A stretch of 64,000 nucleotides of DNA from Actinomycetes bacterium. Its GTDB lineage: Bacteria > Actinomycetota > Acidimicrobiia > Acidimicrobiales > Ilumatobacteraceae. This document shows positions 9,153 to 49,696 of the stretch, in pieces (positions within the stretch are counted from its first letter, which is position 1; every line of letters begins with the position of its first letter). A model generated the notes under the pieces. The model saw only the letters and a list, made by a program, of their open reading frames with translations. It was not told where the DNA came from and did not search any database. Location: assembly GCA_025360105.1 (NCBI GenBank), contig JANYCT010000040.1, forward strand, positions 1 through 64,000. The letters are read 5' to 3'. Made by a program: the position numbers and the translations under genes.

Positions 9153-11412
<2,260 letters not shown>

Positions 11413-20898: not shown

Positions 20899-22278
20899 GT
20901 GCCGGTCGACGTCGTGAACAAGCAGGTTGCGCTGTCCCCGCTCACCGGTTGGGGCCGTACCGGCGGTAGCGGGTCGAGCGTGTTGCCAGCGAGTTCTGCC
21001 AATCTCGGCGACGCTGTGGTACACGGGCCCGATCGTGGTGTGCTGATGCGCGGTCTCGGACGGTCGTACGGCGATGCCGCACAAAACGGTGGGGGACTGG
21101 TTCTGCGGCTGGCGGGGTCGGCCGGTGATGCCATCCTCGATGAAGCCACCCATCGGGTGACGGTCGGAGCGGGTGTCAGCATCGACGATCTGTTGCGCGT
21201 CACCGTGCCTCGTGGATACTTCGTGCCGGTGACGCCCGGGACGCGATTCGTAACGATTGGGGGAGCGATCGCGAGCGACATCCATGGCAAGAACCACCAT
21301 GGTGAGGGCTCGTTCGGCAACCACGTGCAGCGAATCACCATGCTGCTGGCCGATGGTTCCACCGTCGAGATCGGCCCTGATCGGGGGCCAGACCTGTTCT
21401 GGGCCACCGTCGGGGGTATGGGGCTCACCGGTGCGATCATCGAGGCCACGATCCAGATGATTCCGATCGAGACCAGTCGGTGCATCGTCGATACCACTCG
21501 CGCCCACGACCTTGAGCACATCCTCACGCTGATGGATGAGGGCGACCACCGTTATCGCTATTCGGTGGCATGGATCGACCTGATGGCCAAGGGCCGCCAT
21601 CTCGGACGTAGTGTCCTCACGCGCGGCGACCATGCGACGGTCGCCGAATTGCAGGGTGCAGCCACGGCTTCGCCTCGCGCCTATGACCCGCGGGTGATTG
21701 CGAGCGTGCCGCCCGTCGTGCCGTTGAGCGTGATCAATACACTGTCGGTAAAGGCGTTCAACGAGTTCTGGTTTCGCAAGGCGCCGATGTATCGCACCGG
21801 CGAGATCCACTCGTTGGCCGGCTTTTTCCACCCGCTCGACATGGTCGGGGCGTGGAACCGACTGTACGGCCCCCGGGGTTTCGTGCAGTACCAATTTTTG
21901 GTTCCGTTCGGCGAGGAGGAGGCCCTACGGCGGATTGTCGAGCGCTTCGCAGCATCGGGGGCAGCGAGCTTTCTCGCTGTGCTCAAGCGGTTTGGAGCGT
22001 CGAATCCGGCTCCGCTCAGCTTCCCCGCTCCGGGCTGGACGTTAGCGCTCGACATCCCGTCGTCATTCAACGGTCTGAGCGACATGTTGCACGACCTCGA
22101 TCGAATCGTGCTCGACGCAGGCGGTCGTCACTATCTGGCCAAGGATTCCCACACCACGCCCCACGCAATCAAGCGGGGCTATCCGCGGCTCGCCGAATGG
22201 CAGGCTGTGCGTGACCGCTTCGACCCAAGTGGTGTCTGGCGGAGCGACCTCGGTCGGCGCCTGGGCCTCATCGACTGA
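20899..22278 (+). CDS. dprE1: Decaprenylphosphoryl-beta-D-ribose 2-oxidase DprE1
   Basis: A 459-residue FAD enzyme, close to the 461 of M. tuberculosis DprE1. It oxidises decaprenyl-phospho-ribose at C2' to the keto form. The opening LTGWGRTGGS, the RGLGRSYGDAAQN FAD site, and PVTPGTRFVTIGGAIASDIHGKNHH are diagnostic, as is the C-terminal YLAKDSHTTPHAIKRGYPRLAEW. The cysteine attacked by benzothiazinones (Cys387 in M. tuberculosis, in WNICVDF) aligns with Ala383 here (WTLALDI, codon 22045-22047). Start choice is uncertain: GTG 20899 gives the family length, and TAGGAT at 20879-20884 lies upstream; GTG 20869 and 20914 are alternatives. Confidence 0.93.
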   Translation: MPVDVVNKQVALSPLTGWGRTGGSGSSVLPASSANLGDAVVHGPDRGVLMRGLGRSYGDAAQNGGGLVLRLAGSAGDAILDEATHRVTVGAGVSIDDLLRVTVPRGYFVPVTPGTRFVTIGGAIASDIHGKNHHGEGSFGNHVQRITMLLADGSTVEIGPDRGPDLFWATVGGMGLTGAIIEATIQMIPIETSRCIVDTTRAHDLEHILTLMDEGDHRYRYSVAWIDLMAKGRHLGRSVLTRGDHATVAELQGAATASPRAYDPRVIASVPPVVPLSVINTLSVKAFNEFWFRKAPMYRTGEIHSLAGFFHPLDMVGAWNRLYGPRGFVQYQFLVPFGEEEALRRIVERFAASGAASFLAVLKRFGASNPAPLSFPAPGWTLALDIPSSFNGLSDMLHDLDRIVLDAGGRHYLAKDSHTTPHAIKRGYPRLAEWQAVRDRFDPSGVWRSDLGRRLGLID

Positions 22279-22322: not shown

Positions 22323-23084
22323 ATGCAGAACGCTTTCGGAGAACCACAAACCATCCTGCTACTCGGTGGCACAAGCGATATTGGGCGTGCCATCGTCGGC
22401 AAGCTCGTCTCGCCGACGTGCCGCAACGTGGTGCTTGCGTGTCGCACTCCCTCGGCTGCTGAGCCAGCGATTGCAGCACTGCGCCGCGACGGCATGACCG
22501 TCACCTCGATTGCATTCGACGCAAGCGCACCGTTGACCCACGCTGAGTTCGTCGCCGATGTCGTGGCGCAAGTTGGCGATATCGACGTGGTCATTGTGGC
22601 TTTCGGTGTGCTGGGAGATCAAGCGACGTTCGATCATGATCCGGTCGCAGCGTCCGAAGCCGTCACAATCAACTACGTCGGCGCCGTCAGCGTGGGTTTG
22701 GCGGTTGCCGAGCAGTTCCGCAAACAGGGCCACGGTCAATTGGTCGTGTTGTCGAGCGTGGCCGGCGAACGGGTGCGCAAGTCGAACTTCGTGTACGGAT
22801 CATCCAAGGCCGGACTGGATGGGTTTGCTCAGGGCCTCGGTGACTCCTTGGAGGGCACCGGAGCCAAGGTGCTCGTTGTTCGGCCGGGTTTTGTGCACTC
22901 GGCGATGACCGCTGGTCTGGCTGCTGCACCGTTGTCGACCACACCCGACGCGGTTGCCGAGGCGACGGTAAAGGCGCTTCGCAGCGGTCGACGCACGGTG
23001 TGGGTACCTGGCGCGCTCCGGTACATGTTCATCGTTCTTCGACATCTCCCCGGCGCGGTGTTCCGTCGACTGCCGTTGGGGTGA
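22323..23084 (+). CDS. dprE2: Decaprenylphosphoryl-2-keto-beta-D-erythro-pentose reductase DprE2
   Basis: A 253-residue short-chain dehydrogenase. The NAD(P) loop is LLGGTSDIGRAI (about residues 12-23), NNAG is replaced by VAFGVLGD as in DprE2 proteins, and the catalytic Ser-Tyr-Lys appear in VLSSVAGERVRKSNFVYGSSKAGLD (about 140-165). It reduces the DprE1 product to decaprenyl-phospho-arabinose. A hydrophobic C-terminal stretch (LRYMFIVLRHLPGAVFRRLP) is usual for the family. A strong GAGGAG Shine-Dalgarno (22313-22318) fixes the start 44 nt after dprE1. Confidence 0.92.
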   Translation: MQNAFGEPQTILLLGGTSDIGRAIVGKLVSPTCRNVVLACRTPSAAEPAIAALRRDGMTVTSIAFDASAPLTHAEFVADVVAQVGDIDVVIVAFGVLGDQATFDHDPVAASEAVTINYVGAVSVGLAVAEQFRKQGHGQLVVLSSVAGERVRKSNFVYGSSKAGLDGFAQGLGDSLEGTGAKVLVVRPGFVHSAMTAGLAAAPLSTTPDAVAEATVKALRSGRRTVWVPGALRYMFIVLRHLPGAVFRRLPLG

Positions 23085-35256: not shown

Positions 35257-36528
35257 GTGATGGGGGACATCGGGGCGGATCGCCGCAAGGACGCGTTGTT
35301 CAACGCGTCGGTACTTGCTGCAACGCTGCTTGCGGCGACGCTGCGGATGATGATGCTCGTCTCGAAGTGGCATCAAAGGTTGATGCTCAATGATTCGTTC
35401 TACTTCAGTTCGCAGGCCTGGCAGAACGCTCGAGGGCACTGGTTCCGGGACTTTCTCGGAACGCATCCCGCAGCTGAGCACGGGCCACTCACATCGATCG
35501 TGCTCGTTCCGGCAAGCCTGTTGCCACATCACGAATTCTGGCAACGGGCCACGAACACACTCATTGGAATTGCGGTCATTCCCGCACTTGCGCTCCTCGG
35601 GCGCCGCATCGCCGGGCGACGCGTTGGTGTGATCGCTGCGCTGATCGCGGCTGTGTACGCCAACCTCTGGATGAACGATTCGCTGATCATGAGCGAGACC
35701 ATCGCGACGTTGATGGTGGTGCTTGCGCTCGGATACGCGTTCGAGCATCGCGACCGCTTCGATCTGCGCAGCGCCGCCGTGTGCGGAGCGGTGGTCGGCG
35801 TCGCAGCACTCGCGCGAAGTGAGCTGCTGATCATGGCGCCACTCTTTGCGCTGATCGGTGTGCGCACGCGGCCCCGGAGGATCTGGGCCACACGCGCGGC
35901 CCTGCTCGTGGGCGTCGCGCTCGGGGTCCTGGTGCCCTGGGTGGCCTACAACGTTCCTCGTTTCGATCATCTGGTGCTGATCAGCACAAACGAGGGTGGT
36001 GCGCTCCGGGGCGCCAATTGTGATGACACCTACTCAGGGCCTGCACTCGGTGGGTGGTCGGTGCTCTGTGTGGTCGATACCGTCGAGCGGCCCAACGAGG
36101 ACGCATCGGGTCGAGCCATTCGGTTGCGGCGTGAGGCAGTCTCGTATGCCCGTCAACATGTCGGCCGACTTCCCGTGGTGGTTGGGGCCCGGATCCTTCG
36201 CTCGGTCGATGTGTACGGCCTCGACGATCTCGTTCGGTTCGATGTGGGCGAGGAGCGCGCTCGCTGGGCATCGTGGACCGGCATTGTGTCGTGGTGGTTG
36301 CTCGCTCCGCTGGCCGTGGTTGGTTGGTGGCGCCAACGCCGAACGAACGGTTGGATTCTGCTGGCCCCTGTCATCGGGGTAGCCATCACCACCGTGGTGT
36401 TCTATGGTGCTCATCGCCTCCGCTCGCCGATGGAAGCGGTTGTCGTGCTCTGCGCCTCGGTGACAATCGCCCCGCTGACGCCGGTTCGAAGAGCCATTGA
36501 TGCCCGACTTGTGGGCGGCGCAGAATGA
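35257..36528 (+). CDS. GT39/PMT-like membrane glycosyltransferase
   Basis: A 423-residue polytopic protein with about 9-10 helices. The first loop has LNDSFYFSSQAWQNARGHWFRDF and EHGPLTSIVLVPASLL (about 44-85), and NLWMNDSLIMSETIATLMVVLAL (about 140-160) recalls the MSE motif of ArnT/PMT-like enzymes. It probably uses a polyprenyl-phosphate sugar. The start rests on the promoter spacing; ATG 35260 is an alternative. Its stop overlaps the next acyltransferase (ATGA), so the two are coupled. Confidence 0.8.
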   Translation: MMGDIGADRRKDALFNASVLAATLLAATLRMMMLVSKWHQRLMLNDSFYFSSQAWQNARGHWFRDFLGTHPAAEHGPLTSIVLVPASLLPHHEFWQRATNTLIGIAVIPALALLGRRIAGRRVGVIAALIAAVYANLWMNDSLIMSETIATLMVVLALGYAFEHRDRFDLRSAAVCGAVVGVAALARSELLIMAPLFALIGVRTRPRRIWATRAALLVGVALGVLVPWVAYNVPRFDHLVLISTNEGGALRGANCDDTYSGPALGGWSVLCVVDTVERPNEDASGRAIRLRREAVSYARQHVGRLPVVVGARILRSVDVYGLDDLVRFDVGEERARWASWTGIVSWWLLAPLAVVGWWRQRRTNGWILLAPVIGVAITTVVFYGAHRLRSPMEAVVVLCASVTIAPLTPVRRAIDARLVGGAE

Positions 36529-38624
36529 CGCCCAGTTCAGAATCGAGGGCACGGATCCCGTATCAGCCGGCACTCGATGGTGTCCGCGCAATCGCAGTCG
36601 TGATGGTGCTGTTATTCCACGGAGGCGTGTCGTGGATGGGTGGCGGCTACTTCGGTGTCTCGGTGTTCTTCACGCTCTCGGGATACCTGATCACCTCGCT
36701 GCTCGTGCGCGAATTCGAGTCGACGCAGCAAATCGCTCCGTCGTCGTTCTACGTGCGCCGTGCGAAACGCCTGCTACCGGCCAGCTTGGTCTGCCTCTCG
36801 GCAGTAGCGATTTTGGCAGCGAACGACGTGTGGACCGGTGCCGACCAGCTCAAGCGCGATCTCCTCGGGTCACTGGCGCAGGTCGCGAATTGGGTACGGC
36901 TCTTCGCTGGCGAAAGCTACATCGATGTGCAGAGCAAGACGGCAGGATTGCGCTCGCCGCTCGACCACTACTGGTCACTCGCGATTGAGGAGCAGTTCTA
37001 TTGGCTCTGGCCGGTGGCGTTCTGGGCGCTTGCTCGCTGGGCCCGCTCTCGCGGGTGGAGCATGACCCGAGTGATCGGCGGCTGCACACTGATGGCGGCA
37101 GCCTGTGCGCCGGTGATTGCAGCGGCCTGGGGAAGCGACGCAGCATATTGGGCCACGCCGGCACGGGCGAGTGAGATTCTGCTGGGTGCACTGATCGCCG
37201 TTGCACTTGCCGAGCAGCGAATTCGGCCAGCGCGCTGGATGGCGCCGGCTGGGTTGGTCGCTGTGGTTGGACTCGGCCTCTTCCTGCCGATTTCCGGCGG
37301 ACCCGCCTACAGCGGGGCGTTCCCGTTGCTCGCATTGGCCAGTGTGGCGCTGCTGGTCGGTCTGCAGCGCAGCGGCACCGTGACCACGGTGCTGGGATGG
37401 CGTCCGTTCGTGGCTCTTGGCCGAATCAGCTATGGCGTCTACCTGTATCACCTGCCGATCTTTGTGTACCTGACAGCGGATCGATCGGGCCTCGACGGCT
37501 GGAGGCTCCTCATCGCGCGTCTCGGGCTCACCGTGGCGTGCTCTGTCGCCTCGTACTTCGTCATCGAGCGCCCGATCCGTCGGGCGACGTGGGCCGGTGC
37601 GCGCACGGCAACGGTTGCAGTTGGTGCATCGATGGTGGTCGTAGTGCTGGCTTTCACCGTTCCGGTCTCATCCGCAACATATTGGATGGCCAGTGCCGCT
37701 GCCGGGTCACGGGCAGCGATCCCTCTTGACGAACCCTCGGCCCCGCTGTCAGCGATGTCGGCGTCCACGACTTCGCTTGCACCGCGCACTGCCAAGAGCG
37801 AGCCAGACTCGACGACCTCGACGGTGGCCGTGACGATGGGCTTGGCGACCATCGGCTCGGCGACCATTGGGGTAGACGGCACCGCGCCTACCACGGCTGC
37901 GGTCCTCCCGGTGTTGAATCGACCGGTGCGCATCTTGGTGGTGGGCGATTCGACCGCGGAGGCTACGAGCAACGGGCTCATTGCTTGGGCTTGGACGAAC
38001 CCCTCGCTGGCAAGGGTTTCCGTAGCGGCTTCGCCGGGGTGCGGCTTCCTTCGAGGAGGATTGGTCGCGAGCGATAACGGCGTTGCATTTCAGCCGGCCT
38101 GTGACGATGTGCTCGACAAACAGCTCCCGAGGGCGCTGCGCCGACAGCGACCTGATGTCGTGATGCTGATGGTCACCGCTCGTGACATCTCGCCGCGTAC
38201 ATGGAGCGCGGCCGAGGGAGAGCTGACGACCGCTGACCCACTGTTCGTGTCCCGGCTCGAACACGACTTCAGCGCCATCCAGCGACTCATCACATCGTCA
38301 TCGTCGGCTCAGGTGGTGTGGATCCGCCCACCTCACGTGGATCCCTATTGGGCTCATGTGGAGTCGCCCGTCACCGATGATCATGCCCACGCCGTCGTCG
38401 ACGCCGCGATGACCAAGGTGATCGGCGAGAACAGCAGTCGTGCCGAGTTGCTCGACCTGCGCGCATGGACAGAGAACGACGGGATTTCGTTCTTGCACTC
38501 TGCTCGGCCCGACGGTTTGCACTTCACTCCGTCGGCTGCCACCGACGTCGCCGCGCGTTGGCTCGGTCCTCAGCTGTTACTCGCCGCCGCACGTGCAACG
38601 ACGAAGGCTGGTACTGGTCCGTAG
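36525..38624 (+). CDS. Acyltransferase 3 with C-terminal SGNH-like hydrolase domain
   Basis: A 699-residue two-domain protein. Residues about 10-400 form the membrane acyltransferase (ALDGVRAIAVVMVLLFHGG, YFGVSVFFTLSGYLI, YWSLAIEEQFYWLWPVAFW, and LGRISYGVYLYHLPIF). A Ser/Thr/Ala-rich linker (about 405-460) leads to an extracytoplasmic SGNH fold: VVGDSTAEATSNG (Ser nucleophile, about 475) and RPDGLHFTPSA (catalytic Asp/His, about 665). In related OafA-type fusions the SGNH domain completes acyl transfer to surface glycans. ATG overlaps the upstream GT gene. Convergent with an SDR gene, 3 nt apart. Confidence 0.88.
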   Translation: MTPSSESRARIPYQPALDGVRAIAVVMVLLFHGGVSWMGGGYFGVSVFFTLSGYLITSLLVREFESTQQIAPSSFYVRRAKRLLPASLVCLSAVAILAANDVWTGADQLKRDLLGSLAQVANWVRLFAGESYIDVQSKTAGLRSPLDHYWSLAIEEQFYWLWPVAFWALARWARSRGWSMTRVIGGCTLMAAACAPVIAAAWGSDAAYWATPARASEILLGALIAVALAEQRIRPARWMAPAGLVAVVGLGLFLPISGGPAYSGAFPLLALASVALLVGLQRSGTVTTVLGWRPFVALGRISYGVYLYHLPIFVYLTADRSGLDGWRLLIARLGLTVACSVASYFVIERPIRRATWAGARTATVAVGASMVVVVLAFTVPVSSATYWMASAAAGSRAAIPLDEPSAPLSAMSASTTSLAPRTAKSEPDSTTSTVAVTMGLATIGSATIGVDGTAPTTAAVLPVLNRPVRILVVGDSTAEATSNGLIAWAWTNPSLARVSVAASPGCGFLRGGLVASDNGVAFQPACDDVLDKQLPRALRRQRPDVVMLMVTARDISPRTWSAAEGELTTADPLFVSRLEHDFSAIQRLITSSSSAQVVWIRPPHVDPYWAHVESPVTDDHAHAVVDAAMTKVIGENSSRAELLDLRAWTENDGISFLHSARPDGLHFTPSAATDVAARWLGPQLLLAAARATTKAGTGP

Positions 38625-38627
38625 TCG

Positions 38628-39683
38628 CTATCTCGACCGCGGCAGTAACGCAGTGGCGTGCTTCAACAGCGTGAGTGCGCCCTGCTTTGCCGGGCGGCGA
38701 TGATGCGATTGGGTCTCGTCGTCCTGCGCCGCCATCGACCGCCGGTGCGACACGAACCAGTCGTAGCTCTCGGCGAACATCTCCTCGTTCGACCAGCGCG
38801 GTGTCCACCCGAGCGCCTCGGTTGCGTGTGTCGTGTCGAACCACATCGACTTGCTGTACATGATCCAGTGATATGGCGCGAACGGTGCGAGTCCGGCGGT
38901 TGCGACCAACCGCATCGCCAACGAGGCCGCACCGGCGGGGAGTGACCTCACCTGTGAGCCCGTACCGGCGTGCTCGCAGACGGCCTCAAGCGTCTCGCGC
39001 ATTGTGCCGAACCGATCGGTGCCGGCGTTGAAGATGGCCGGCCCGCTGCTCGCACCGGCGCGGATGCAGATGTCGGCGAGGTCATCGGCGTGGACGAACT
39101 GGTATCGATTTGAGCCGTTGCCGAGCACGAAGACATCGGCACCGTCGGCGATCCAATCGAACAGGATCCCGAAGATGCCGAGTCGGCCGTGACCCAAGAT
39201 GGTGCGTGGTCGCACGATGCTCACGTCGAGACCGTGCGCCGCTGCATTGAGGCACGCCCACTCCGCAGCGAGCTTGGCGTCACCGTAGGCCTCACGAGGT
39301 GACGGCACGGTGGATGGCAGAACCGGGTTGGATTCGGGCACACCGAACACTGCGCTCGACGAGGTGTGCACCACCTTTGCGACGGCTGCATCGCTGCAGG
39401 CGGCGAGCAGGATGCGGGTACCGTCGACGTTGACGGTGCGCAGCAAATGCTCGTCTTTGGCGAGGGGCACCTGGGCCACGTTGTGATACACCACGTCAAT
39501 GCCGTCGACAGCGGCGCGTACCACAGCGGCATTGCGGATGTCACCCTGCACGAAGTCGAGATCGCCGGCATCGTCGGGCGGATTCACGTCGAGGATGCGA
39601 ACCCTGTGTCCTGCGGCGCGAAGCTGCGTGGCGAGCAGGGCGCCGAAGTAGCCGCTGCCACCGGTAACGAGGGCCGTGGTCAC
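38628..39683 (-). CDS. NAD-dependent epimerase/dehydratase (extended SDR, 3beta-HSD-like)
   Basis: A 351-residue extended short-chain dehydrogenase. The NAD loop is ALVTGGSGYFGALLATQL (residues 4-21), DIRN follows at about 52, and catalytic Ser/Tyr/Lys lie in VVHTSSSAVFG and REAYGDAKLAAEW (about 105-140). RYQFVHADDLADICI is the usual C-terminal signature. Family members epimerise nucleotide sugars or oxidise 3-hydroxy groups. The GTG start overlaps the upstream SDR gene by 4 nt (GTGA). It is the last gene of a four-gene operon with a GMC oxidoreductase. Confidence 0.87.
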   Translation of the reverse strand: MTTALVTGGSGYFGALLATQLRAAGHRVRILDVNPPDDAGDLDFVQGDIRNAAVVRAAVDGIDVVYHNVAQVPLAKDEHLLRTVNVDGTRILLAACSDAAVAKVVHTSSSAVFGVPESNPVLPSTVPSPREAYGDAKLAAEWACLNAAAHGLDVSIVRPRTILGHGRLGIFGILFDWIADGADVFVLGNGSNRYQFVHADDLADICIRAGASSGPAIFNAGTDRFGTMRETLEAVCEHAGTGSQVRSLPAGAASLAMRLVATAGLAPFAPYHWIMYSKSMWFDTTHATEALGWTPRWSNEEMFAESYDWFVSHRRSMAAQDDETQSHHRRPAKQGALTLLKHATALLPRSR

Positions 39684-40726
39684 AGCTCTAGCCCCTCGCG
39701 GCGGCACCATTGAATGCTGCGGCGCATACCCTCGTATAGCGCGACCGCGGGTCGGTATCCGAGCTCGGTTTGCGCAGCACCGATGTCGCAGGCAATCGAG
39801 TGCGCCATCTCGCCCATCACATGCAACTGTTGCTGGTACCGGCCGGTGGATTGGATGATGCGGTCGGCCCGTTCGGCGACGCGACCGGCGATCACGGGCA
39901 GTGCCATCGCGCCCGGCTTGACCTCGTAGCCCTCGTCGGTAAGGGCCCGACCAACTGTCTCGATGATCTCGTTCACGGTGTAGGCGCGTTCGTCGGCGAT
40001 CCAATACGCACGCCCGCTCGGCCCTGGTGTGAGCTCGGCGCGCACGATGCCCTGGACGAGGTTGTCGACATAGACCATCGACCGGCGCTGCATGCCTGCG
40101 CCGAACTTCGGGAACCTGCCACCGCGCACAAGACGAAAGAACGTGGTTTGACGTGGCGGCTGAAGCGGGCCGTAAAACCATGGTGGACGCACGATGACGG
40201 CATCGAGGCCGGCCTGCACCTGATCGAGCACAGCGAGTTCGCCCTGCATCTTCGACTCGCCGTATCCCAGATACGGGTTGTAGGGCTCGTGAGCGCGGAA
40301 CGTGTCTTCGTCAGAAGCATTTGTGCCGAACGGTGAGTTGGATGACACGTGCACCATCCGCCGGAGGCCGGCTCGCTGGACTGCAGCCGCAACGTTGGCA
40401 GCACCACCCGCGTTGACCGCAAAGAAGTCGCTGACCTTGGCCGGGTGAATCACACCCGCGGTGTGGATGACGTCGGTGTCGGGCGGAAGTCCGACGAGCA
40501 GGCGTTCGAGCGAGTCCGGGTCGGTGACCGAGCCGATGATCGCGCGCGCTCTAGCGCTCACTGCGTGCACGGCATCGGCCTCTGTTTGGTTCAGCACGAG
40601 AGCGCGCACCTCGCCATCGCGCGCGTGATCGCCTGCGTCGGTTGCCAGATGGTGTACGAGCGCGCGGCCGAGCCACCCAGCTGACCCGGTAATCACCGTC
40701 GCCGCGGGCAGGGCGAGATCATCCAT
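39680..40726 (-). CDS. NAD-dependent epimerase/dehydratase (extended SDR)
   Basis: A 348-residue extended SDR. The nucleotide loop is TVITGSAGWLGRALVHHLA (about residues 10-28). HVSSNSPFG and PYLGYGESKMQGE (about 130-160) carry the catalytic Ser/Tyr/Lys. RSMVYVDNLVQGIVRAEL marks the C-terminal half. It is homologous to, but clearly different from, the SDR downstream. The ATG at 40726 lies 8 nt inside the GMC gene. The pair of SDRs after one flavoprotein suggests successive steps on one substrate. Confidence 0.86.
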   Translation of the reverse strand: MDDLALPAATVITGSAGWLGRALVHHLATDAGDHARDGEVRALVLNQTEADAVHAVSARARAIIGSVTDPDSLERLLVGLPPDTDVIHTAGVIHPAKVSDFFAVNAGGAANVAAAVQRAGLRRMVHVSSNSPFGTNASDEDTFRAHEPYNPYLGYGESKMQGELAVLDQVQAGLDAVIVRPPWFYGPLQPPRQTTFFRLVRGGRFPKFGAGMQRRSMVYVDNLVQGIVRAELTPGPSGRAYWIADERAYTVNEIIETVGRALTDEGYEVKPGAMALPVIAGRVAERADRIIQSTGRYQQQLHVMGEMAHSIACDIGAAQTELGYRPAVALYEGMRRSIQWCRREGLEL

Positions 40727-42194
40727 GTGGGCGCTCCGTCTCGATGAAACGCTGCGCGTTGCGAATGGCAAACGCCATTACAGAACCCTGCGGGTTCACG
40801 CCGGGAGCGTCGGGCAGCATGGACGCATCGTTGACCCATACATTCCGCATGCCGCGCACCTGTCCGAAGCTACCGGCAGCGCAGCGTGGGTGCTCGCCGA
40901 TGGGTACGGTGGAGCAGAGGTGCACCGTCATCACCGTGGCCTTCGTGGCCGCAAACGAGCGTTGCAGCGAGGCGATATCGGCGCTGCTGCGCACCACCGG
41001 AGCGTTGTGGTAGCTGGGGTACACCTCATCTGCGCCGGCGGCGAGCATCAACAGGGTGAGCCTGCTCAGCCCGCTGCGCAGCAGTTGCTTGTCGCGAGCG
41101 GTGAGGTTGTAGGTCACCAATGGGTCGCGCAGTCCGGGGATGGCCTTCACCCGTCCCTTGCCCTCACTGGTGATGGCTGCGTAGTACACACAGACTCGTT
41201 CCCACTCGTGCAGTGCGTGGCTGAACTCGCCCCAGTTGTCGGCCAGCGCGAGCGCAACCAGGCCGGGGTGGCTGGCGGAGCCCCCGAAGGAGATCTCCGG
41301 GGCGAACTCTTTGACCTGATGCACGGGCACGTCGTCGGGAATGTTGATTGGCTCGGCGAATCGGGCCGCCAGCTTCACCGTCGGATGCACAGCAAGTGTG
41401 TCACCGATGCGCTCACGTAGACCGCTGCGCTGCAGCAGCGCAGGCGTATGGATGGCCCCGCCACAGACGAAGACGTGGCGGAAATGGATCCGCCCGGGAG
41501 AGCCGTCGGCGAGCACGACGTCGGCGTCGCTGGCGCTGGTGCCCGAGATCGACAGCTTGCGCACACGACACTGCGTGAGCAGGCGCGCCCCGGCTCGTTG
41601 GGCACGCGGCAGGTAGGTGCGCGTCATGCTTTGGCGTTGTCCGCTCGATGCTGATCCGCCGGGGGGATATGTCATCCAACGCGGGCTCTCGCTGTTCTGC
41701 CACGCAAGCGCATCTGCACCTCGTCGCAACACGGCACTCGGCGCCGAAACCGCGCCGGGCACGGTGGTGACGTTGATCGCCGACTCGATCTCGTCGGCGA
41801 TGACGTACATCTCGTCGGGATCCAGATCGCGGATGTGGTACTGGCTGCGCCACCGCTCGAGCAGCTCGGCCGGTGGGCGGCGATAGAGACCACTGTTCAC
41901 TTCGGTGCCGCCTCCGGCACAGCGCCCCTCGGTGTAGGCAATCGACGGGAGTCCGAGCGCAACCGTGACGCCGCCGGAGCGGTATTGGCGGTCCATCTGC
42001 TCGAGTGAAAAGGAGACCACGCTGCCCTGCTCGACCCAATCGCCCTCTTCGACGACGAGCACGTCGAATCCGGCCTCGGCCAGTAACGCAGCGGTGGTCG
42101 CTCCACCGGCACCCGAGCCGATGATGAGTATCTCGGCGTCGTAGCGCGCCTCGGTGGCGGGAGTATGGATGGGCGTGCTCGCAGGACCGGTCAT
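40719..42194 (-). CDS. GMC-family FAD-dependent oxidoreductase
   Basis: A 491-residue flavoprotein. The FAD dinucleotide loop ILIIGSGAGGATTAALLAEAGFDVLVVEEGDW (about 22-53 as positions; GxGxxG plus acidic end) opens it. GRCAGGGTEVNSGLYRRPP is the second GMC signature, and WVNDASMLPDAPGVNPQGSVMAFAIRNA (about 455-482) is the C-terminal FAD site. GMC enzymes oxidise alcohols to aldehydes or ketones. Its start overlaps the small upstream gene by 4 nt. Substrate unknown; operon partners suggest a sugar or lipid-linked alcohol. Confidence 0.88.
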   Translation of the reverse strand: MTGPASTPIHTPATEARYDAEILIIGSGAGGATTAALLAEAGFDVLVVEEGDWVEQGSVVSFSLEQMDRQYRSGGVTVALGLPSIAYTEGRCAGGGTEVNSGLYRRPPAELLERWRSQYHIRDLDPDEMYVIADEIESAINVTTVPGAVSAPSAVLRRGADALAWQNSESPRWMTYPPGGSASSGQRQSMTRTYLPRAQRAGARLLTQCRVRKLSISGTSASDADVVLADGSPGRIHFRHVFVCGGAIHTPALLQRSGLRERIGDTLAVHPTVKLAARFAEPINIPDDVPVHQVKEFAPEISFGGSASHPGLVALALADNWGEFSHALHEWERVCVYYAAITSEGKGRVKAIPGLRDPLVTYNLTARDKQLLRSGLSRLTLLMLAAGADEVYPSYHNAPVVRSSADIASLQRSFAATKATVMTVHLCSTVPIGEHPRCAAGSFGQVRGMRNVWVNDASMLPDAPGVNPQGSVMAFAIRNAQRFIETERPHG

Positions 42195-42532
42195 TGTGCC
42201 GCCGAACCATCGGGCTGCGTGTTCGGCCACTGCTCCCAGATGTATGTGTATGCCAGCGACCGGACCATCCGCACGTATTCTCCGAGTAGCGGAAGGGGAT
42301 GCCGGATCAACCACAGGATCAGGCGGTCTGAACCTGGGGATGCAACGACGATGCGCATTGGCGCGGCTATCAGGTGCACACCGATTCGCAACACGCTCGG
42401 CAACTCGTCGACACGCTGCACGGTGAAGTCGGACACCTCGCCGCGCTGTTGTTCACTGAGTCCGGGTAGGTCGGCGCGGAGCAAGCGTTGTGCGAAGGGG
42501 CGCACGAGACCCCGTGAGGATTGACCAGCCAT
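42191..42532 (-). CDS. Small hypothetical protein, co-transcribed with the GMC oxidoreductase
   Basis: A 113-residue protein that I do not recognise. The first half is charged and helical (FAQRLLRADLPGLSEQQR, later VQRVDELPSVLRIGVHLIAAPMRIVV), and the second half has a hydrophobic patch near LILWLIRHPLPLLGEYVRMVRSLAYTYIW. It may sit on the membrane or bind the GMC enzyme as a small subunit, as in some dehydrogenase complexes. The four-base overlap with the GMC start means translation is coupled. TACACT lies 12 nt upstream of the ATG. Confidence 0.65.
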   Translation of the reverse strand: MAGQSSRGLVRPFAQRLLRADLPGLSEQQRGEVSDFTVQRVDELPSVLRIGVHLIAAPMRIVVASPGSDRLILWLIRHPLPLLGEYVRMVRSLAYTYIWEQWPNTQPDGSAAQ

Positions 42533-42575: not shown

Positions 42576-42631
42576 GATCACTTGGGCATGATCACTTGTG
42601 CACGATCACACGGGCACAATCACACGCGAGC
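42576..42631 (+). repeat. Four tandem 14-bp units at the 3' end of an acyltransferase gene
   Basis: Units start at 42576 (GATCACTTGGGCAT), 42590 (GATCACTTGTGCAC), 42604 (GATCACACGGGCAC) and 42618 (AATCACACGCGAGC). The minus-strand stop codon of the acyltransferase (42620-42622) is in the last unit, so the array occupies the space between this stop and the start of the small gene. Confidence 0.82.
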
Positions 42632-44662
42632 GCACGCGCCTGGCGGTGTGTTGTACGCCGGGTCGTTCACCCAAGAGCCGTTGATCCACAAAGCTGGCGG
42701 CGTCGGAGTGACGCCGTCGAAACGGGCGGCGATCTCTCCCACTAACCAGGCGCCGACCATCGCAGCGCCTGATGCGCACAGGTGCACACCGTCCCACATC
42801 CGCTCGGGTACATGATCGCCATTGAGATCTGCGCTGTATCCCTGACCCCACACGACACGCGAGTCGAGGAACACGACATCGTCGGGCCACGCGCTGGCGA
42901 CGCGTATCGCAGCGTCGGCGAGTACGTCTACACCTGCAACGGTCTGATCAGATCGCATCGGCGGCACGGGAAGAATGACCAATTGGGCGTGCGCCGCGGC
43001 AACGATGTCATGCAACGACGCCAGTGCCGCGAATTGCCTGTCGCCGCCAAACGATGCGTCCCACGTGGACAACTGGATAATGACAATTTGCGGGTGGCTC
43101 GCGTTGATCAGTGTGATGATGTGGGGGAACTCCCCGTAGCCGGGTTGATTCACGAGACCGACGCCGGCGAGCGAACCCCGCACGAGCGTGACTCCAGACG
43201 GAAGGAACGCCGCAGCGACGCCGGGCTCGGTCGTTTCGGCAACGGAGTCCCCGAACATGGCAACGGTGTGCACCACGCCGCGTGTGGCCTGCGGGGGAGG
43301 CAATAGCGAGCTCGTTGCCGATGGCTGAGGCTCCGATATGGCGGCGAAGTTGCTCCTCCCCGTGTCTGCGAGGGGAGTCGGTGTCGGCTGAGTCGCACGG
43401 TGCGTGGCGCCGGTGATCAACGCCGCGTCAAGTGCTGCGGCGCCGCGTTGGGGGAGGGCCACCGTGATCGCGAACACCGCGGCGGCACCCACCGCAAGCG
43501 CGGCTGCAGGAGCAGTCATCCAGCGGGGTAGGCGTTGCAGGCCGAGCCGCGCGGGACGCTCGACCAGATGGTACGACGCGAGTGCCACGACCCACGTGAC
43601 CGTCAGCCGCAGGGTGAGCAGGGGCCACGCGGTGAGCCCGGTGCGCAGCGGGGTCAGCACCACAAAGATCGGCCAGTGCCACAGGTACAGTCCATACGAG
43701 ATGCGACCGATCGAGCGCAGTGCTCGCAGCGACAGCGCAGCGCGTACTGCGCCGAGCGGTGACCAGTTGCGCGTTGTCGAGAGCGGGATCGCCTGTGGGT
43801 CCTCCGACGACGTTGTGACCGCCGCAAGCAGCAGCCCCACTGCGGACGCAAATGCAGCGAAGCCGCCGTAGAACAACACAGCAGAGCTTCCGTCGGCGCG
43901 TGCAAAGGCCCACACGATGGAGCCACTGAGGACAAGTATCGTGACACCTGTCGCTGCGCGGGCGCAGCGCGACCGGTGTTGCACAACGTGTCGCACGAGG
44001 TGGCGAGCTGAGCGTGTTGCGAAGAGGCCGCCGATCATCATTGCCCCAACGCGTGTGTCTGTTCCCTCATAAACGCGCGTCGACGAGGCTGGGTCGTAGA
44101 GCACAGCCATGAGGACAAACGAGAGCACGGCACCGGTTGCGCACACCGTGGCCATTGTGCGATGCGGTCGTCGCGCCCAGCATGCGATCGCCAATGCCAC
44201 CACGGGCCAGACGAGGTAGAACTGCTCCTCGACTGCGAGGCTCCACAGGTGGGTGAGCGGCGATTGCAGAGCAAACGCTGTCCAGTAGTTGTGATGAGCG
44301 ACGATCTCGTGCCAGTTCATCAGAAATGACAATCCCCACAGCGTGTCGCCACGCAACGCGAGTCGCTCCGGGGCGGTTCCCCATCGCACGGACCAGAACG
44401 TGACGACGCACAGCATGATGGCCAGTGCGGGCAGCAGGCGTCGCGCGCGGCGCGCCCAGAATTCACCGAGACGCACCGTTGTGCTGCGATCGATCTCGCG
44501 TAGCAGCAGTCCGGTGATCAAGAAGCCGGAGATCACAAAAAAGGTGTCGACACCCAGAAATCCACCCTCGAGATGTCCGGCGTGGAACAACAAAACGGCG
44601 CACACGGCCACCGCCCGCAACCCATCGAGTGCAGGAAAATACCCTGGTTCTGCATCGTTCAC
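42620..44662 (-). CDS. Acyltransferase 3 with C-terminal SGNH-like hydrolase domain
   Basis: A 680-residue protein built like the one at 36525. The membrane domain starts YFPALDGLRAVAVCAVLLFHAG and contains FLGVDTFFVISGFLI, THLWSLAVEEQFYLVWPVVAL and IGRISYGLYLWHWPIFVV. After a Pro/Thr-rich linker (about 425-465) an SGNH-like domain has MFGDSVAETTEPG and WDGVHLCASGAAM. The likely job is acyl transfer to a surface glycan. I chose GTG 44662 (GGGGGG upstream); a GTG at 44719 would add 19 residues. Confidence 0.86.
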   Translation of the reverse strand: MNDAEPGYFPALDGLRAVAVCAVLLFHAGHLEGGFLGVDTFFVISGFLITGLLLREIDRSTTVRLGEFWARRARRLLPALAIMLCVVTFWSVRWGTAPERLALRGDTLWGLSFLMNWHEIVAHHNYWTAFALQSPLTHLWSLAVEEQFYLVWPVVALAIACWARRPHRTMATVCATGAVLSFVLMAVLYDPASSTRVYEGTDTRVGAMMIGGLFATRSARHLVRHVVQHRSRCARAATGVTILVLSGSIVWAFARADGSSAVLFYGGFAAFASAVGLLLAAVTTSSEDPQAIPLSTTRNWSPLGAVRAALSLRALRSIGRISYGLYLWHWPIFVVLTPLRTGLTAWPLLTLRLTVTWVVALASYHLVERPARLGLQRLPRWMTAPAAALAVGAAAVFAITVALPQRGAAALDAALITGATHRATQPTPTPLADTGRSNFAAISEPQPSATSSLLPPPQATRGVVHTVAMFGDSVAETTEPGVAAAFLPSGVTLVRGSLAGVGLVNQPGYGEFPHIITLINASHPQIVIIQLSTWDASFGGDRQFAALASLHDIVAAAHAQLVILPVPPMRSDQTVAGVDVLADAAIRVASAWPDDVVFLDSRVVWGQGYSADLNGDHVPERMWDGVHLCASGAAMVGAWLVGEIAARFDGVTPTPPALWINGSWVNDPAYNTPPGACARV

Positions 44663-44734
44663 ATTGCCCCCCGGCGCTGTTGCGCTCGCACACGGTGAGG
44701 TGTCGACCCCGAAAGGCACCTCCGACAGTGGCGT

Positions 44735-45469: not shown

Positions 45470-48400
45470 TTAGTCACTGGTGGCATCTCCGTAGCGGCCT
45501 CCGACGCAAATCCCTGCAAGGAGGAGCACGACCGCGGCCATGCCCAGACGATGTAGATCGTCGAAGACGATTGGCCAGCCGGCATCGGGGAACGGATGAA
45601 GTCGTGAGACGCGGTACACCATGACCCCGCCGACGTAGCACACGATGCCGATCGCAACGACTCCGATGAGGTGCGGTCGGCGCAACAACGCCACACAGAC
45701 AAAGGCGATAGCACCGCAGATCGCACCCCATAGCGGTGCGACGACCAGGGCTCCCATCACTGTCGCGATTGCGATAGATGTCGTGCCGGAGCTGCGGATG
45801 GACCGGAGTCGTGCGATGCTCGGCCGCCCCCACAGCGCTGCGAGTCGGGGTGGCGCGAATTCGCGCAGGTCACGTCGCTTGCGATCGAACCAGATCAAGC
45901 CGAGGCATGCAAGGAGGGCCAGCGCAGTGATCAGTAAGCCCTTGTTCACGGTGCGCTGACCTTGCCAGTTGAGGTGCACAACGCGACTCGAAGCGCTGGG
46001 CGTGAGATACCAGCCGTTGAAGCCGCCGTCTACCGGCTGTTGCTGCCCGAGCGAGGCCCCGCTGGTCTGAGCGGTCCAGCCCAGGTTGAAGCCCTCGCCG
46101 AACACCAGCCAGCAACCGACGGGGCACGCCTCGACGTGTACGTCGCGGGTCGTGCGGCTGGTGCTGAGCACGATTGCCTTCGTGGCCGGCGCCGCCGTAT
46201 CGGATGACGTGGCGCCTTCGCTGCGCATCACGACCCGGTTGATGTCGATGCCTGTGTCGGCACCGGCGAAACTACGAAGAATGTGTTCGCCGACGCCGAG
46301 CGCGAGTGTCGGGCCGGCGCACAGCGACACGGTGGCGTCATGATCGGTAAACAGATCGCTTGTCGACCCGCTCACACGAACCGGAACCGACTTGCCATCG
46401 ATGGTGACAAGACTGTTCACGCAGCCCGTGTCGAGCTTCGTCGGCAGAGTAGCCGGAACGATGCCGGCTCCGGAGATCTCCGAGATCCCAACGGGCAACC
46501 GCACGGATTGTCCGTAGCGGCGATCGACGGTGCTCGCATCGTTCGTGCCGGTGATCGTCACCGACAGGATTTGCCCTGTTACGGCGCCGAAGTCGAGTGT
46601 GCTGATTCCGGCGGCGTCCGGTGCGGGCACGGGCACCGTGACGGCGCCGCTGTTGCTACGAACCTCGACCTCGGTGATCGTGGCCAGTTGATCGGAGACG
46701 GGCTGGCGGAGTGTGAGCGACGTCGTGGTCTGACTGGTAGCGAGCGTCATGGTGAGGCTGCTGCCAATCGCGTGGTCGAAGGGAGACACCCACGATGTGC
46801 TCGCGTCGCCATCCGTAGCTGCCCAGCCGCCCATCGCCGGCACCCCAGTGAGGTGGCGGTTGGAGACTGTGCCGCGCCAACCAAAGAGTCGGGCCAGGGT
46901 CGAGTCGTCGCCGCGTTGATCGATGCGCGCGGTCACTTTTGGCGTCACGGTGCGCTCCGTGCCGAGCGTGAACGATCGTGCGAGCACCGGCTCCGGATCG
47001 CTGCGGTATCTGTTGGTCGGCCGCGTGCGGAGGCGGGTCAGTACCATGTCGAGCGATTGCTTGCTCGAGAGCGTCGGGAGTACGTTGCTTGGGACGCGAA
47101 TTACTTCTTCGGTCGCACTGGGCCCTGTTGTCGCTTCAGCGAAACCAACACCGTCGAGGCCCTCGCCGGTGTGCAGCGCAGCGTGGTCGGTGCCGTCGAT
47201 AGTGATCGTGACGACACTCGATGGCTCGTGCAACGCCACTGTCTGGCCGACCACTGAGCGCGAACTGCTGCCGAGATCCACGGGGAACGAGCCCGACGCG
47301 TCAGAGATCGTAATCCGAGTGATCCATCGGTTCCGAAGGTCTTGCGGCTGCACCAACGTGATGGAGTTGACCTCGTGATTCGTTGTCAGGCGAAGGAACT
47401 CGCCTGTGGGGTCGGCGTGGTCGCCAACGACCCACGATGTTCCCGGATTACCGTCAACGGCCATCGCTGCGCGATCTTCCGGACGGTACGCAAACGGCTC
47501 GCCGTAGGCGCTTGCTGCGGCGTGCACTGCACCGCGCTGCTCTGCGATCGTCATGTCAGCAGTTGTTGCATTTGCAAAGATTGGCAGCCGCTGATCCGCG
47601 CTGTCGAACCGAAGCACGCCACCACCAGGTGTTCCGTCCTCCGTGAACCCGGTAACATCCTGCGAGCCCCTCCACTGATGGGCGCGATCGCGGTTGCTGT
47701 CGGTGACGATGACCCGATCGGCGCGAGCGATGGCGTCGTTGCCGCCCGCTGCGCCCACAAGGTCGGCGGTGTATCGGATCAATTCGGTCCCATCGATGAG
47801 CCCAGCCGCGGCGGCGTCGACGAGTCCGTCACCACTACCAGCCACAGCGACGGTTCCCTGCTTGATGCGGATGATCGGTTGCGGATCGACAACAGGAACC
47901 AGCGCCACCGGGGCAATCGGTGTACCGATAGCGGCGTTGCTGATCGATTGCTCGTCGATCATGGGCACCTGCGGGATGTTCGGAGTGGGTGTCCCGTAGG
48001 TGACTGCGGGTCCGAGCTGGGTGTTCGCGGTGCTGAACAGTTGACTGATCGTCTCCGGTCGCGGCGAGCGGAAACGCTCAAATGCCATATCGCCCGGCAA
48101 CCAGATGGTGTCGGTGGCGAACAGCCGAGCGATCGGTGCAATCGAGGGCAACTCGATCGTGCCCTCTTGAAAGCGATCGTCGAGCGAGTAGATCGTATCC
48201 ATCGCCGCTGGGCTCCCAAGCGGCAGCAGATCGCGCGAGATGAATGGCTTCTTCGTGAGCCCCGGCAGGGGAGGGTCGACGGTGTATCCCCACCGGAACG
48301 CGCCAAACTCGTTGCCTGGCAACTGCATCACGCGAGTGGCGGCCGAGTTGGTGTCGAGCGCGTTGGATGCTTGCGTCCAAGCAGCGGGTGGCTGCTCGTC

Positions 48401-49696
48401 ACGAGTCAGGTTTGGATCGACGAGACCGCCGCTGAGGAGCGATGGCAGATTGAGAATGGCAAGACCAGTGACAAACCACGGGGCCACACTGCGCAGCGGC
48501 CAACGTGTGCGTCCGACAGCTACCACGAGTGCGCCTGCGCCAAGAGCGAGTCCGAGCGTGCTGAGCGGCAGCGCGCGAGTGCTGCTGCGCATCGCAAGCG
48601 CCAACGACGAGCGTGAGTTCGTGGCAAGTGGGGACATCAGCGCTGACGAATTGTTGATCGGGTGCACACCCACTGCGAGCACGACGCCGACGAACACCAG
48701 AAGTGCGGCGTATCGACGGCTTGCCCATCGGGTGAGCACGAGGCCGAGTAACGAGGCGACGAGAAGAGCGAACGATATGGCGATGAGTCGTCCCGAGGTC
48801 ATGTACCGCAGGGACGAGGTCGTCGCGAAGCCGATGGGATCCCGCACGTAGAAGAGCCAGTAGCCCATGCCGCGGAGCACCTCGGCGCTCGAGGATGTGT
48901 ACGACACTGCCTGCAGCGTCTCGGAGTACCCGAGTACGTCGGCGCCATAGCGGCCCTGCACCGACAGCATCGCAATCCACCACGCAGATACGGCGAGGCT
49001 GATCACTGCGAGTTTGGCGGCCACTGTGACGGCGCGCTTCCACGTGATGACGCGTCCCCACGCTGCGTGCAGCAGCCATAGCGCTGGGCCGGGCGCGATC
49101 ATCATGATCGCGGTGGCGTTCGGCGCGGCAACAGTGAGCATCACGAGACCGAACACACCAACGTCGCGCCACGTCGAACGCGTCGCAGCGCGGATGGTGA
49201 GGCCGATCAACCACCCGAGACCGGCCCAGGGCAGCAACATTGCCGAGGTACGCGATACATACGGCAGGACATAGGGCGACAGTTGATACACAACGGCAGC
49301 GACGAGCGCGCCGGTGGCAGGAATGCCCAGATGTTTCGCTGCCCATCGCACCCCAAGACCAGCCATCAGGAGCAAGGTGCCGAGCCAGAGTCGTTGGGCA
49401 ATCCAGTCGGGCACTCCGAGTGCGCTGCAGACCGAATACCACGGACCCGATGGCCAGAGATAACTCAGCGTCTGATGAGGCACCCAGCCGGCGAACTGGC
49501 GGCTATCCCAGGAGTATGGCGCGTCGCCGGTGAGCCTGGCGGGATTCAGGTACAGGTAGAGCTTGGTGTCTGCGGGCATTTTGCCGGGTGCCGACGTCAG
49601 GGCAGGGACGTATGCCAGCACCGCCAGCAGGGCGACGTGCAGCCAGTTACGTGTACGCCCGAGTCGATCGAGGAAATCAGAAAACGAGGCGCTCAT
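45470..49696 (-). CDS. aftD: AftD-like alpha-(1->3)-arabinofuranosyltransferase (DUF3367 domain)
   Basis: A 1408-residue protein, the length class of mycobacterial AftD. Residues about 15-440 are a GT-C core with some 11-13 helices; the first loop PGKMPADTKLYLYLNPARL (about 37-55) with its Asp pair is an AftD hallmark. Then come large extracytoplasmic beta-rich regions, including two discoidin-like (F5/8 type C) modules recognisable by DGNPGTSWV (about 752) and DGDASTSWV (about 960), and a few helices near the C-terminus (about 1275-1400). AftD adds arabinose branches to arabinogalactan and lipoarabinomannan from decaprenyl-phospho-arabinose, which the dprE genes here would supply. ATG start; no leaderless hexamer. 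Confidence 0.88.
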   Translation of the reverse strand: MSASFSDFLDRLGRTRNWLHVALLAVLAYVPALTSAPGKMPADTKLYLYLNPARLTGDAPYSWDSRQFAGWVPHQTLSYLWPSGPWYSVCSALGVPDWIAQRLWLGTLLLMAGLGVRWAAKHLGIPATGALVAAVVYQLSPYVLPYVSRTSAMLLPWAGLGWLIGLTIRAATRSTWRDVGVFGLVMLTVAAPNATAIMMIAPGPALWLLHAAWGRVITWKRAVTVAAKLAVISLAVSAWWIAMLSVQGRYGADVLGYSETLQAVSYTSSSAEVLRGMGYWLFYVRDPIGFATTSSLRYMTSGRLIAISFALLVASLLGLVLTRWASRRYAALLVFVGVVLAVGVHPINNSSALMSPLATNSRSSLALAMRSSTRALPLSTLGLALGAGALVVAVGRTRWPLRSVAPWFVTGLAILNLPSLLSGGLVDPNLTRDEQPPAAWTQASNALDTNSAATRVMQLPGNEFGAFRWGYTVDPPLPGLTKKPFISRDLLPLGSPAAMDTIYSLDDRFQEGTIELPSIAPIARLFATDTIWLPGDMAFERFRSPRPETISQLFSTANTQLGPAVTYGTPTPNIPQVPMIDEQSISNAAIGTPIAPVALVPVVDPQPIIRIKQGTVAVAGSGDGLVDAAAAGLIDGTELIRYTADLVGAAGGNDAIARADRVIVTDSNRDRAHQWRGSQDVTGFTEDGTPGGGVLRFDSADQRLPIFANATTADMTIAEQRGAVHAAASAYGEPFAYRPEDRAAMAVDGNPGTSWVVGDHADPTGEFLRLTTNHEVNSITLVQPQDLRNRWITRITISDASGSFPVDLGSSSRSVVGQTVALHEPSSVVTITIDGTDHAALHTGEGLDGVGFAEATTGPSATEEVIRVPSNVLPTLSSKQSLDMVLTRLRTRPTNRYRSDPEPVLARSFTLGTERTVTPKVTARIDQRGDDSTLARLFGWRGTVSNRHLTGVPAMGGWAATDGDASTSWVSPFDHAIGSSLTMTLATSQTTTSLTLRQPVSDQLATITEVEVRSNSGAVTVPVPAPDAAGISTLDFGAVTGQILSVTITGTNDASTVDRRYGQSVRLPVGISEISGAGIVPATLPTKLDTGCVNSLVTIDGKSVPVRVSGSTSDLFTDHDATVSLCAGPTLALGVGEHILRSFAGADTGIDINRVVMRSEGATSSDTAAPATKAIVLSTSRTTRDVHVEACPVGCWLVFGEGFNLGWTAQTSGASLGQQQPVDGGFNGWYLTPSASSRVVHLNWQGQRTVNKGLLITALALLACLGLIWFDRKRRDLREFAPPRLAALWGRPSIARLRSIRSSGTTSIAIATVMGALVVAPLWGAICGAIAFVCVALLRRPHLIGVVAIGIVCYVGGVMVYRVSRLHPFPDAGWPIVFDDLHRLGMAAVVLLLAGICVGGRYGDATSD

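Follow-up and report, generated by a model that had tools for sequence, protein, structure and literature searches.

The 64,000-nucleotide stretch of DNA analyzed here, referred to throughout as the window, covers positions 1 to 64,000 of contig JANYCT010000040.1 (assembly GCA_025360105.1), from an actinomycete of the family Ilumatobacteraceae, class Acidimicrobiia. It encodes DprE1 and DprE2, the textbook bacterial system for the epimerisation of a lipid-linked pentose and a well-known antibiotic target. On the minus strand of the same window lies an operon, here called the cassette, that encodes a small protein, a GMC flavoprotein and two extended short-chain dehydrogenases/reductases (SDR1 and SDR2). 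Why should such a locus hold a second set of flavin- and nicotinamide-dependent enzymes? A first-pass annotation had suggested that the flavoprotein and the SDRs follow the logic of DprE1/DprE2 and could form another, unrecognised system for epimerising lipid-linked or nucleotide sugars. We find that the operon is inherited as a unit with intact catalytic motifs, and that in two phyla it is linked to the type of UbiA protein that transfers phosphoribose. In our judgment the chances are even that it remodels a lipid-linked sugar as a system that runs parallel to DprE1/DprE2 without being homologous, and whose product would be a lipid-linked furanose other than arabinose. No description of the cassette was found by title in the open-access literature.

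A conserved four-gene unit in the Acidimicrobiia

The four minus-strand genes overlap by 4 nt (small gene and GMC), 8 nt (GMC and SDR1) and 4 nt (SDR1 and SDR2), at the coordinates that had first been assigned to them (Table 1). GMC starts at an ATGA shared with the stop codon of the small gene; an open reading frame of 531 amino acids at this position is the same frame counted from a GTG further upstream. In the genome collection, the named genomes closest to this organism belong to metagenome-assembled Actinomycetota from freshwater or groundwater, two of which are labelled Acidimicrobiaceae.

Within a sample of the class comprising 148 Acidimicrobiia genomes, GMC (E ≤ 1e-80) and SDR1 (E ≤ 1e-40) are carried by the identical 16. 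A set of 61 relatives has GMC orthologs (E ≤ 1e-120) in 18 members and SDR1 (E ≤ 1e-40) in 17; the sole difference is a genome (G006) whose GMC gene is cut by a contig end. Across the phylum, SDR1 was detected at E ≤ 1e-30 in five of 296 genomes, namely four Acidimicrobiia with the cassette and one genome whose protein is 31% identical. A profile of the small protein gave 22 matches at E ≤ 0.1 in 198 phylum genomes; the four strong ones (E ≤ 1e-32) all belong to cassette genomes, and the best match beyond them has an E-value of 0.013.

For gene order, 35 Acidimicrobiia stretches were compared; they come from 33 genomes and include the window. Adjacency was judged from gene 3′ ends, small-protein counts were based on alignment A1, and one stretch cut by a contig end (L043) was scored as adjacent. 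Only those of 30 GMC loci with E below 1e-120 were taken as orthologs, and L031-L035 were excluded as duplicate contigs. In each of the 32 stretches that have both, the small gene immediately precedes GMC, and SDR1 is directly upstream of SDR2 in every stretch that has both (32/32). Of the 30 stretches that contain all four genes, 21 show them in the same row; in the remaining nine, the small-GMC and SDR1-SDR2 pairs are found at different places or in different orientations. The SDR pair of genome G033 is 17.6 kb away from GMC. In genome G145 (L138, L085), GMC is on a separate contig and the small gene remains beside the SDRs. Apart from the nine pair rearrangements and the separate GMC contig of G145, the scattering in relatives that the first-pass annotation had held would speak against its proposal is not seen. 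The cassette is a conserved unit.

The same genes on rhizobial plasmids

Searching 72,556 plasmids with the GMC protein returned 19 records, ten of them rhizobial. Nine of these hold a protein 37–41% identical to the query; the tenth, from R. leguminosarum (NZ_CP071629.1, 23.8%), was not counted as an ortholog. A search with SDR2 (E ≤ 1e-50) retrieved the same nine rhizobial records and two haloarchaeal plasmids. All nine plasmids, pNGR234a included, have genes for SDR2, an SMR-family protein, the small protein and GMC in this order. SDR1 occurs in 8/9 stretches, a membrane protein roughly 658 amino acids long in 8/9, and a UbiA match near the cassette in eight, one being a fragment. The ninth stretch, from pMLa, stops at the start of the circular record, and its near twin (L151) has SDR1 and UbiA beyond that point. 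In Rhizobium gallicum, the genes for UbiA, SDR1, SDR2, the SMR protein, the small protein and GMC are consecutive on a single strand.

Identities to the window proteins are 39–41% for GMC, 45% for SDR1 and 50–52% for SDR2. A profile of the Acidimicrobiia small proteins finds the rhizobial ones with E-values of 3e-9 to 1e-7 (among 20 proteins) and scores of 20–25 bits in 9/9 stretches. On the rhizobial plasmids HAD and UbiA form a single protein, a fusion seen in L141, and this UbiA passes the cut-off of NF006088 (617 vs 351 bits). GMC, the small protein, SDR1, SDR2 and a UbiA of the phosphoribosyl-transferring type are thus the elements common to both phyla. The SMR protein is nearest to ArnE, a subunit of the aminoarabinose-lipid flippase (39.8 bits vs a cut-off of 92). 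We considered whether the rhizobial membrane protein is homologous to glycosyltransferase-like gene clusters of the Acidimicrobiia and rejected the idea (best probability 2.7% over 29 clusters).

Trees of GMC, SDR1 and SDR2 each recover a rhizobial clade and two groups of Acidimicrobiia. Support for the rhizobial clade is 1.0 in all three trees and that for the second group 0.999 (GMC), 0.82 (SDR1) and 0.997 (SDR2). The first group has a support of 0.98 in the SDR1 and SDR2 trees and carries no value in the GMC tree. Taken as a whole, the Acidimicrobiia are a single clade in the GMC and SDR2 trees; the SDR1 tree, rooted at its midpoint, does not unite them.

The NGR234 block is flanked on one side by an IS21 element adjoining nodS-nodU and on the other by further plasmid genes, at a distance of about 9 kb from nodS; no paper on the rhizobial gene names y4nM/J/L/G was found by title in the open-access literature. 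Three plasmids deserve separate mention. On R. gallicum pRGM101a, UbiA and GMC are each split in two pieces (L145:5463-6907 and 9890-11412), and this copy may be decaying or misread. In Sinorhizobium garamanticum, genes for a HAD hydrolase and a phosphoribosyltransferase-family protein lie just upstream of the cassette (L146:5148-6618). On a Natronococcus plasmid (L149:9965-15285), the gene for an SDR2-like protein (36%) is close to those for a UbiA, a DolP-mannose mannosyltransferase and a GT39 protein, hinting that SDR2-type enzymes go with UbiA in haloarchaea as well.

Linkage to DprE1 and to UbiA

DprE1 (NF053785, E ≤ 1e-80) is present in 64 of the 148 Acidimicrobiia genomes, that is, in 15/16 with the cassette and in 49/132 without it, an association with a Fisher p of 1.3e-5 when kinship is ignored. 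The cassette genome that lacks DprE1 (G156) is 85% complete and has its UbiA in three pieces. Because 15 of the 16 cassette genomes have DprE1, we regard the cassette as an addition to the DprE1 route in the Acidimicrobiia and not as its replacement. Fifteen of the 16 cassette genomes have a UbiA of the DPPR-synthase family, over the cut-off in 14, and at a single place in each save G156. A dedicated second UbiA in the Acidimicrobiia was therefore rejected, with one place per genome in 14/16. On the rhizobial side, DprE1 was found on 0/9 records, searched whole at E ≤ 1e-10 with the chromosomes outside the search; the positive control, Corynebacterium glutamicum, was detected.

Catalytic motifs of the flavoprotein and the SDRs

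The flavoprotein has the features of the GMC superfamily: the GMC_oxred_N and GMC_oxred_C domains, the FAD motif GxGxxG, and a catalytic His with its His/Asn partner. The His and the Asn are each invariant (54/54) among aligned relatives. It was suggested at first that a grouping with catabolic sterol or choline oxidases would undo the sugar proposal; this assignment was rejected, since the protein misses the curated NCBIfam cut-offs for choline dehydrogenase (61.6 vs 605) and cholesterol oxidase (31.9 vs 850). Scores are likewise low for MftG of the mycofactocin system (TIGR04542, 58.5 vs 400) and pyranose oxidase (30.9 vs 544.9). A long-chain alcohol oxidase was set aside as the principal reading and is retained below as a rival.

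The two branches differ around a possible iron-sulfur site. The spacing C-x5-C-x3-C is present in 9/9 rhizobial GMC proteins, while 31/31 Acidimicrobiia GMC proteins are without these cysteines. Fused GMC relatives, described below, have the exact spacing in 10/14 cases and a longer first gap in the other four. In the Burkholderia glucose dehydrogenase, Cys212, Cys218 and Cys222 are reported to be the ligands of a 3Fe-4S cluster (PMC6719666). As the Acidimicrobiia proteins lack the cluster cysteines, their electron exit must differ from that of the rhizobial proteins; to judge from these alignments, the electron acceptor probably changed between the branches, and the Acidimicrobiia enzyme may perhaps pass its electrons to O2. 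No secretion signal was evident when the sequences were read by eye.

In the SDRs, the Tyr and Lys of YxxxK are invariant in 39/39 SDR1 and 40/40 SDR2 sequences aligned. SDR2 also has an invariant Asp after strand beta-2 (40/40), a position that in SDRs usually marks the use of NAD(H). The best NCBIfam families for the two enzymes are HpnA (110.6 bits, cut-off 367.65) and OleD (78.2 bits, cut-off 580). SDR1 has its top score with OleD, and SDR2 also scores with OleD and SdmB. Neither reaches the curated cut-off of HpnA, OleD, dTDP-glucose 4,6-dehydratase or GalE.

The small protein as a candidate GMC subunit

The small protein had been described as unrecognised, and this stands: no Pfam family matches it, even at E up to 10. 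The Gluconate_2-dh3 family (PF13618) in particular gave no match at E ≤ 10 with four small proteins, nor at E ≤ 1 with three rhizobial ones. GMC relatives in other Actinomycetota offer a possible origin. They are proteins of 600-odd amino acids with an extra N-terminal domain of roughly 135–155 residues, and 14 such N-terminal stretches were collected (three from hits of the GMC ortholog search, 11 from a separate candidate search). PF13618 was matched at E ≤ 0.1 by 7/10 of the N-terminal stretches, two above the cut-off; three further fused proteins scanned whole gave one match (0.064).

In profile comparisons, the second-group small proteins align with the 14 fused domains at 67% probability, collinear over 93 columns, with a score of 32.4; the highest-scoring of 48 decoys reaches 18.4. 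The corresponding values for all 30 small proteins are 25% and 26.2 vs 17.9 for the best decoy. The first group, which holds the window protein, reaches 1.9% and a score of 17.9, with one decoy higher; the two groups are related to each other at 96%. Because of this possible remote domain similarity and its fixed place upstream of GMC, the small protein is best read as a split-off GMC subunit. Most likely it corresponds to the Gluconate_2-dh3-like N-terminal domain of the fused relatives in stand-alone form, a reading with moderate support from these comparisons. Gene order and the remote similarity also favor the earlier idea that it is the partner of the GMC enzyme.

Glycan genes around the cassette

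The first description of the surroundings as a glycan region proved sound: DprE1, DprE2 and the phosphoribosyltransferase pass their NCBIfam cut-offs, and an AftD-type protein matches PF11847 (Table 1). Inside the 35 cassette stretches, profiles find AftD in 17, DprE1 in 6 and UbiA in 5.

Table 1. Cassette genes and glycan-related genes of the window.
Feature	Position	Strand	Evidence or remark
Small protein, 113 aa, ATG start	42191..42532	-	Open reading frame and sequence reading
GMC flavoprotein, 491 aa	40719..42194	-	Pfam GMC_oxred_N 9.4e-31, GMC_oxred_C 5.2e-13
SDR1, extended SDR, 348 aa	39680..40726	-	Pfam Epimerase PF01370 6.3e-28
SDR2, extended SDR, 351 aa, GTG start	38628..39683	-	Pfam Epimerase PF01370 6.4e-38
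HAD-IB phosphatase adjoining UbiA	18588..19217	+	NCBIfam
UbiA, decaprenyl-phosphate phosphoribosyltransferase	19214..20083	+	NCBIfam 349 bits vs cut-off 207
DprE1	20899..22278	+	NCBIfam 585 bits vs cut-off 500; PF01565/PF04030
DprE2	22323..23084	+	NCBIfam 338 bits vs cut-off 250; PF00106
AT3-SGNH acyltransferase, convergent with SDR2	36525..38624	+	Pfam/NCBIfam
AT3-SGNH acyltransferase, SucT-like	42620..44719	-	87 nt upstream of small gene
AftD-type arabinofuranosyltransferase	45470..49696	-	PF11847 1.9e-75

Two AT3-SGNH acyltransferases bracket the cassette and score 91.0 and 90.2 bits with SucT, against a cut-off of 1275 bits. Two large proteins elsewhere in the window (23896-25635, cluster c6; 30512-32449, cluster c3) are present in 16/36 and 22/36 stretches, respectively. 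No Pfam or NCBIfam family was matched by either, and they may be unrecognised glycosyltransferases.

A proposed pathway and its alternatives

In the mycobacterial pathway, UbiA makes polyprenyl-phosphate-5-phosphoribose, which a HAD phosphatase trims. The cassette could branch from the same point. UbiA would form polyprenyl-phosphate-5-phosphoribose and the HAD phosphatase would remove the phosphate. The GMC enzyme, in complex with the small subunit, would then oxidise one hydroxyl of the polyprenyl-phosphate pentose to give a keto-sugar, and both SDRs would use NAD(P)H to convert it, by rearrangement and reduction, into a different polyprenyl-phosphate furanose. We infer the lipid-linked substrate, the order of the steps, the carbon inverted, the product and the binding of the small protein to GMC, and likewise that the reaction is an epimerisation and which sugar it acts on. 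In the Acidimicrobiia, the branch would run beside DprE1/DprE2 and supply a second sugar donor that decorates an arabinan-type envelope glycan. In rhizobia it would run without a DprE1 on the plasmid; the SMR protein may flip the lipid and the many-helix membrane protein may transfer the sugar, roles which both proteins would fit. Stated in full, the proposal is of a second, DprE1-independent polyprenyl-phosphate pentose chemistry in which GMC, its split-off small subunit and two SDRs act on the UbiA product to give a non-arabinose lipid-linked furanose, both in the Acidimicrobiia envelope and in a self-contained plasmid module of nodulating rhizobia that brings a UbiA of its own along with a putative flippase and a putative transferase. 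We hold this fuller version tentatively, at somewhat less than an even chance.

Several points weigh against it. A plain 2′-epimerisation takes one oxidase and one reductase, so that the second SDR is unexplained. With the next-best family, that of decaprenyl-phosphate phosphoribosyltransferase, the rhizobial UbiA scores 133 bits, below the cut-off of 207. The rhizobial chromosomes, which lay outside the DprE1 search, may carry DprE1, and the link to DprE1 in the Acidimicrobiia could reflect common ancestry of envelope types rather than function. Comparison of the rhizobial membrane protein with 29 gene clusters of the Acidimicrobiia revealed similarity to none of them. Finally, fused proteins of the alcohol-oxidase kind are among the relatives of GMC, and each of the SDRs also scores, below the cut-offs, with lipid-acting SDRs (OleD, SdmB and 3-beta-hydroxysteroid dehydrogenase).

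A soluble sugar or nucleotide sugar could instead be the substrate, with the SDRs as ordinary nucleoside diphosphate (NDP)-sugar enzymes and the locus reflecting a shared glycan. Both SDRs belong to PF01370, and their matches in NCBIfam and the PDB include dTDP-glucose dehydratases and UDP-glucose epimerases, but all of these fall far under the family cut-offs. Moreover, the company of UbiA and the SMR protein in which the rhizobial set travels suggests a lipid carrier in the membrane, and we consider a soluble substrate unlikely.

It is more doubtful still that the lipid part is what is modified, GMC being an alcohol oxidase of polyprenol or another long-chain alcohol and the SDRs reductases like 3-beta-hydroxysteroid dehydrogenase or OleD. 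The nearest GMC relatives that are not orthologs are the fused proteins with a Gluconate_2-dh3-like N-terminal domain, and the top score of SDR1 with OleD and the scores of SDR2 with OleD and SdmB point the same way. However, these scores are below the cut-offs, and the linkage is specific to UbiA of the phosphoribosyltransferase type and not to polyprenol synthesis.

That the cassette makes decaprenyl-phosphate arabinose, the product of DprE1/DprE2, as a back-up in the Acidimicrobiia and a replacement in rhizobia, would agree with the apparent entry point shared at UbiA and with the failure to find DprE1 on any of the nine rhizobial replicons, but it is improbable given that DprE1 is kept in 15/16 cassette genomes, that 49 of the 64 DprE1 genomes do without the cassette, and that the gene count differs, with two SDRs.

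If the remodelling of a lipid-linked pentose is the correct reading, the logic of epimerising such sugars arose more than once, here via a non-homologous route, and an unreported envelope sugar is predicted in a large environmental class of actinobacteria. A gene block on rhizobial plasmids that is so far uncharacterised would also acquire a testable role, and pNGR234a, with its copy close to nodS, offers a genetically tractable host.

Comparison with known systems

The FAD glucose dehydrogenase of Burkholderia pairs a GMC protein with a small Gluconate_2-dh3 ‘hitchhiker’ subunit, and in the cassette, too, GMC has a small gene as its partner. The rhizobial orthologs match the complex in the spacing reported for its 3Fe-4S ligands (PMC6719666). 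Unlike this complex, the cassette has no heme subunit, no secretion signal as judged by eye and no PF13618 match, and the Acidimicrobiia proteins are uniformly without the cysteines. The fused Gluconate_2-dh3-like/GMC oxidoreductases of Actinomycetota have a GMC domain 34–38% identical to that of the cassette and an N-terminal domain collinear with the small protein; they differ in being a single chain, and the stretches L056-L058 contain neither an SDR nor a separate small gene. HpnA and OleD are the best-scoring families for the extended SDRs, yet both cassette enzymes are far below the cut-offs for membership.

DprE1/DprE2, the decaprenylphosphoryl-ribose 2′-epimerase, also combines a flavoenzyme with a nicotinamide-dependent SDR, encoded close to a HAD phosphatase and a phosphoribosyltransferase of the UbiA type. 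The cassette shares the linkage to the phosphoribosyltransferase type of UbiA (8/9 rhizobial stretches, 15/16 cassette genomes). In contrast, DprE1 is of the FAD_binding_4/ALO type whereas the cassette flavoprotein belongs to PF00732/PF05199, and DprE2 is a classical SDR (adh_short) whereas both cassette SDRs belong to PF01370. Because these two defining features, flavoprotein type and SDR class, differ, the cassette is not a member of the DprE1/DprE2 system. The likeness first drawn to DprE1/DprE2 therefore stands as an analogy, strengthened by the nine rhizobial plasmids, and fails as a relation at the level of families. Two reports make noeC, noeH and noeO of Azorhizobium the counterparts of the mycobacterial genes for decaprenylphosphoryl-arabinose synthesis and noeP the likely transferase (PMC2443382; PMC5080398). 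DprE1/DprE2 and the noe genes share with the cassette a setting in envelope or Nod-factor glycan (PMC2443382; PMC5080398). The nine plasmids mirror the Azorhizobium layout, with UbiA/HAD first and the GMC set replacing the DprE1/DprE2-type genes. The cassette resembles, in sum, a known kind of chemistry, the oxidation of a lipid-linked sugar by a flavin enzyme followed by nicotinamide-dependent reduction, assembled from unrelated proteins.

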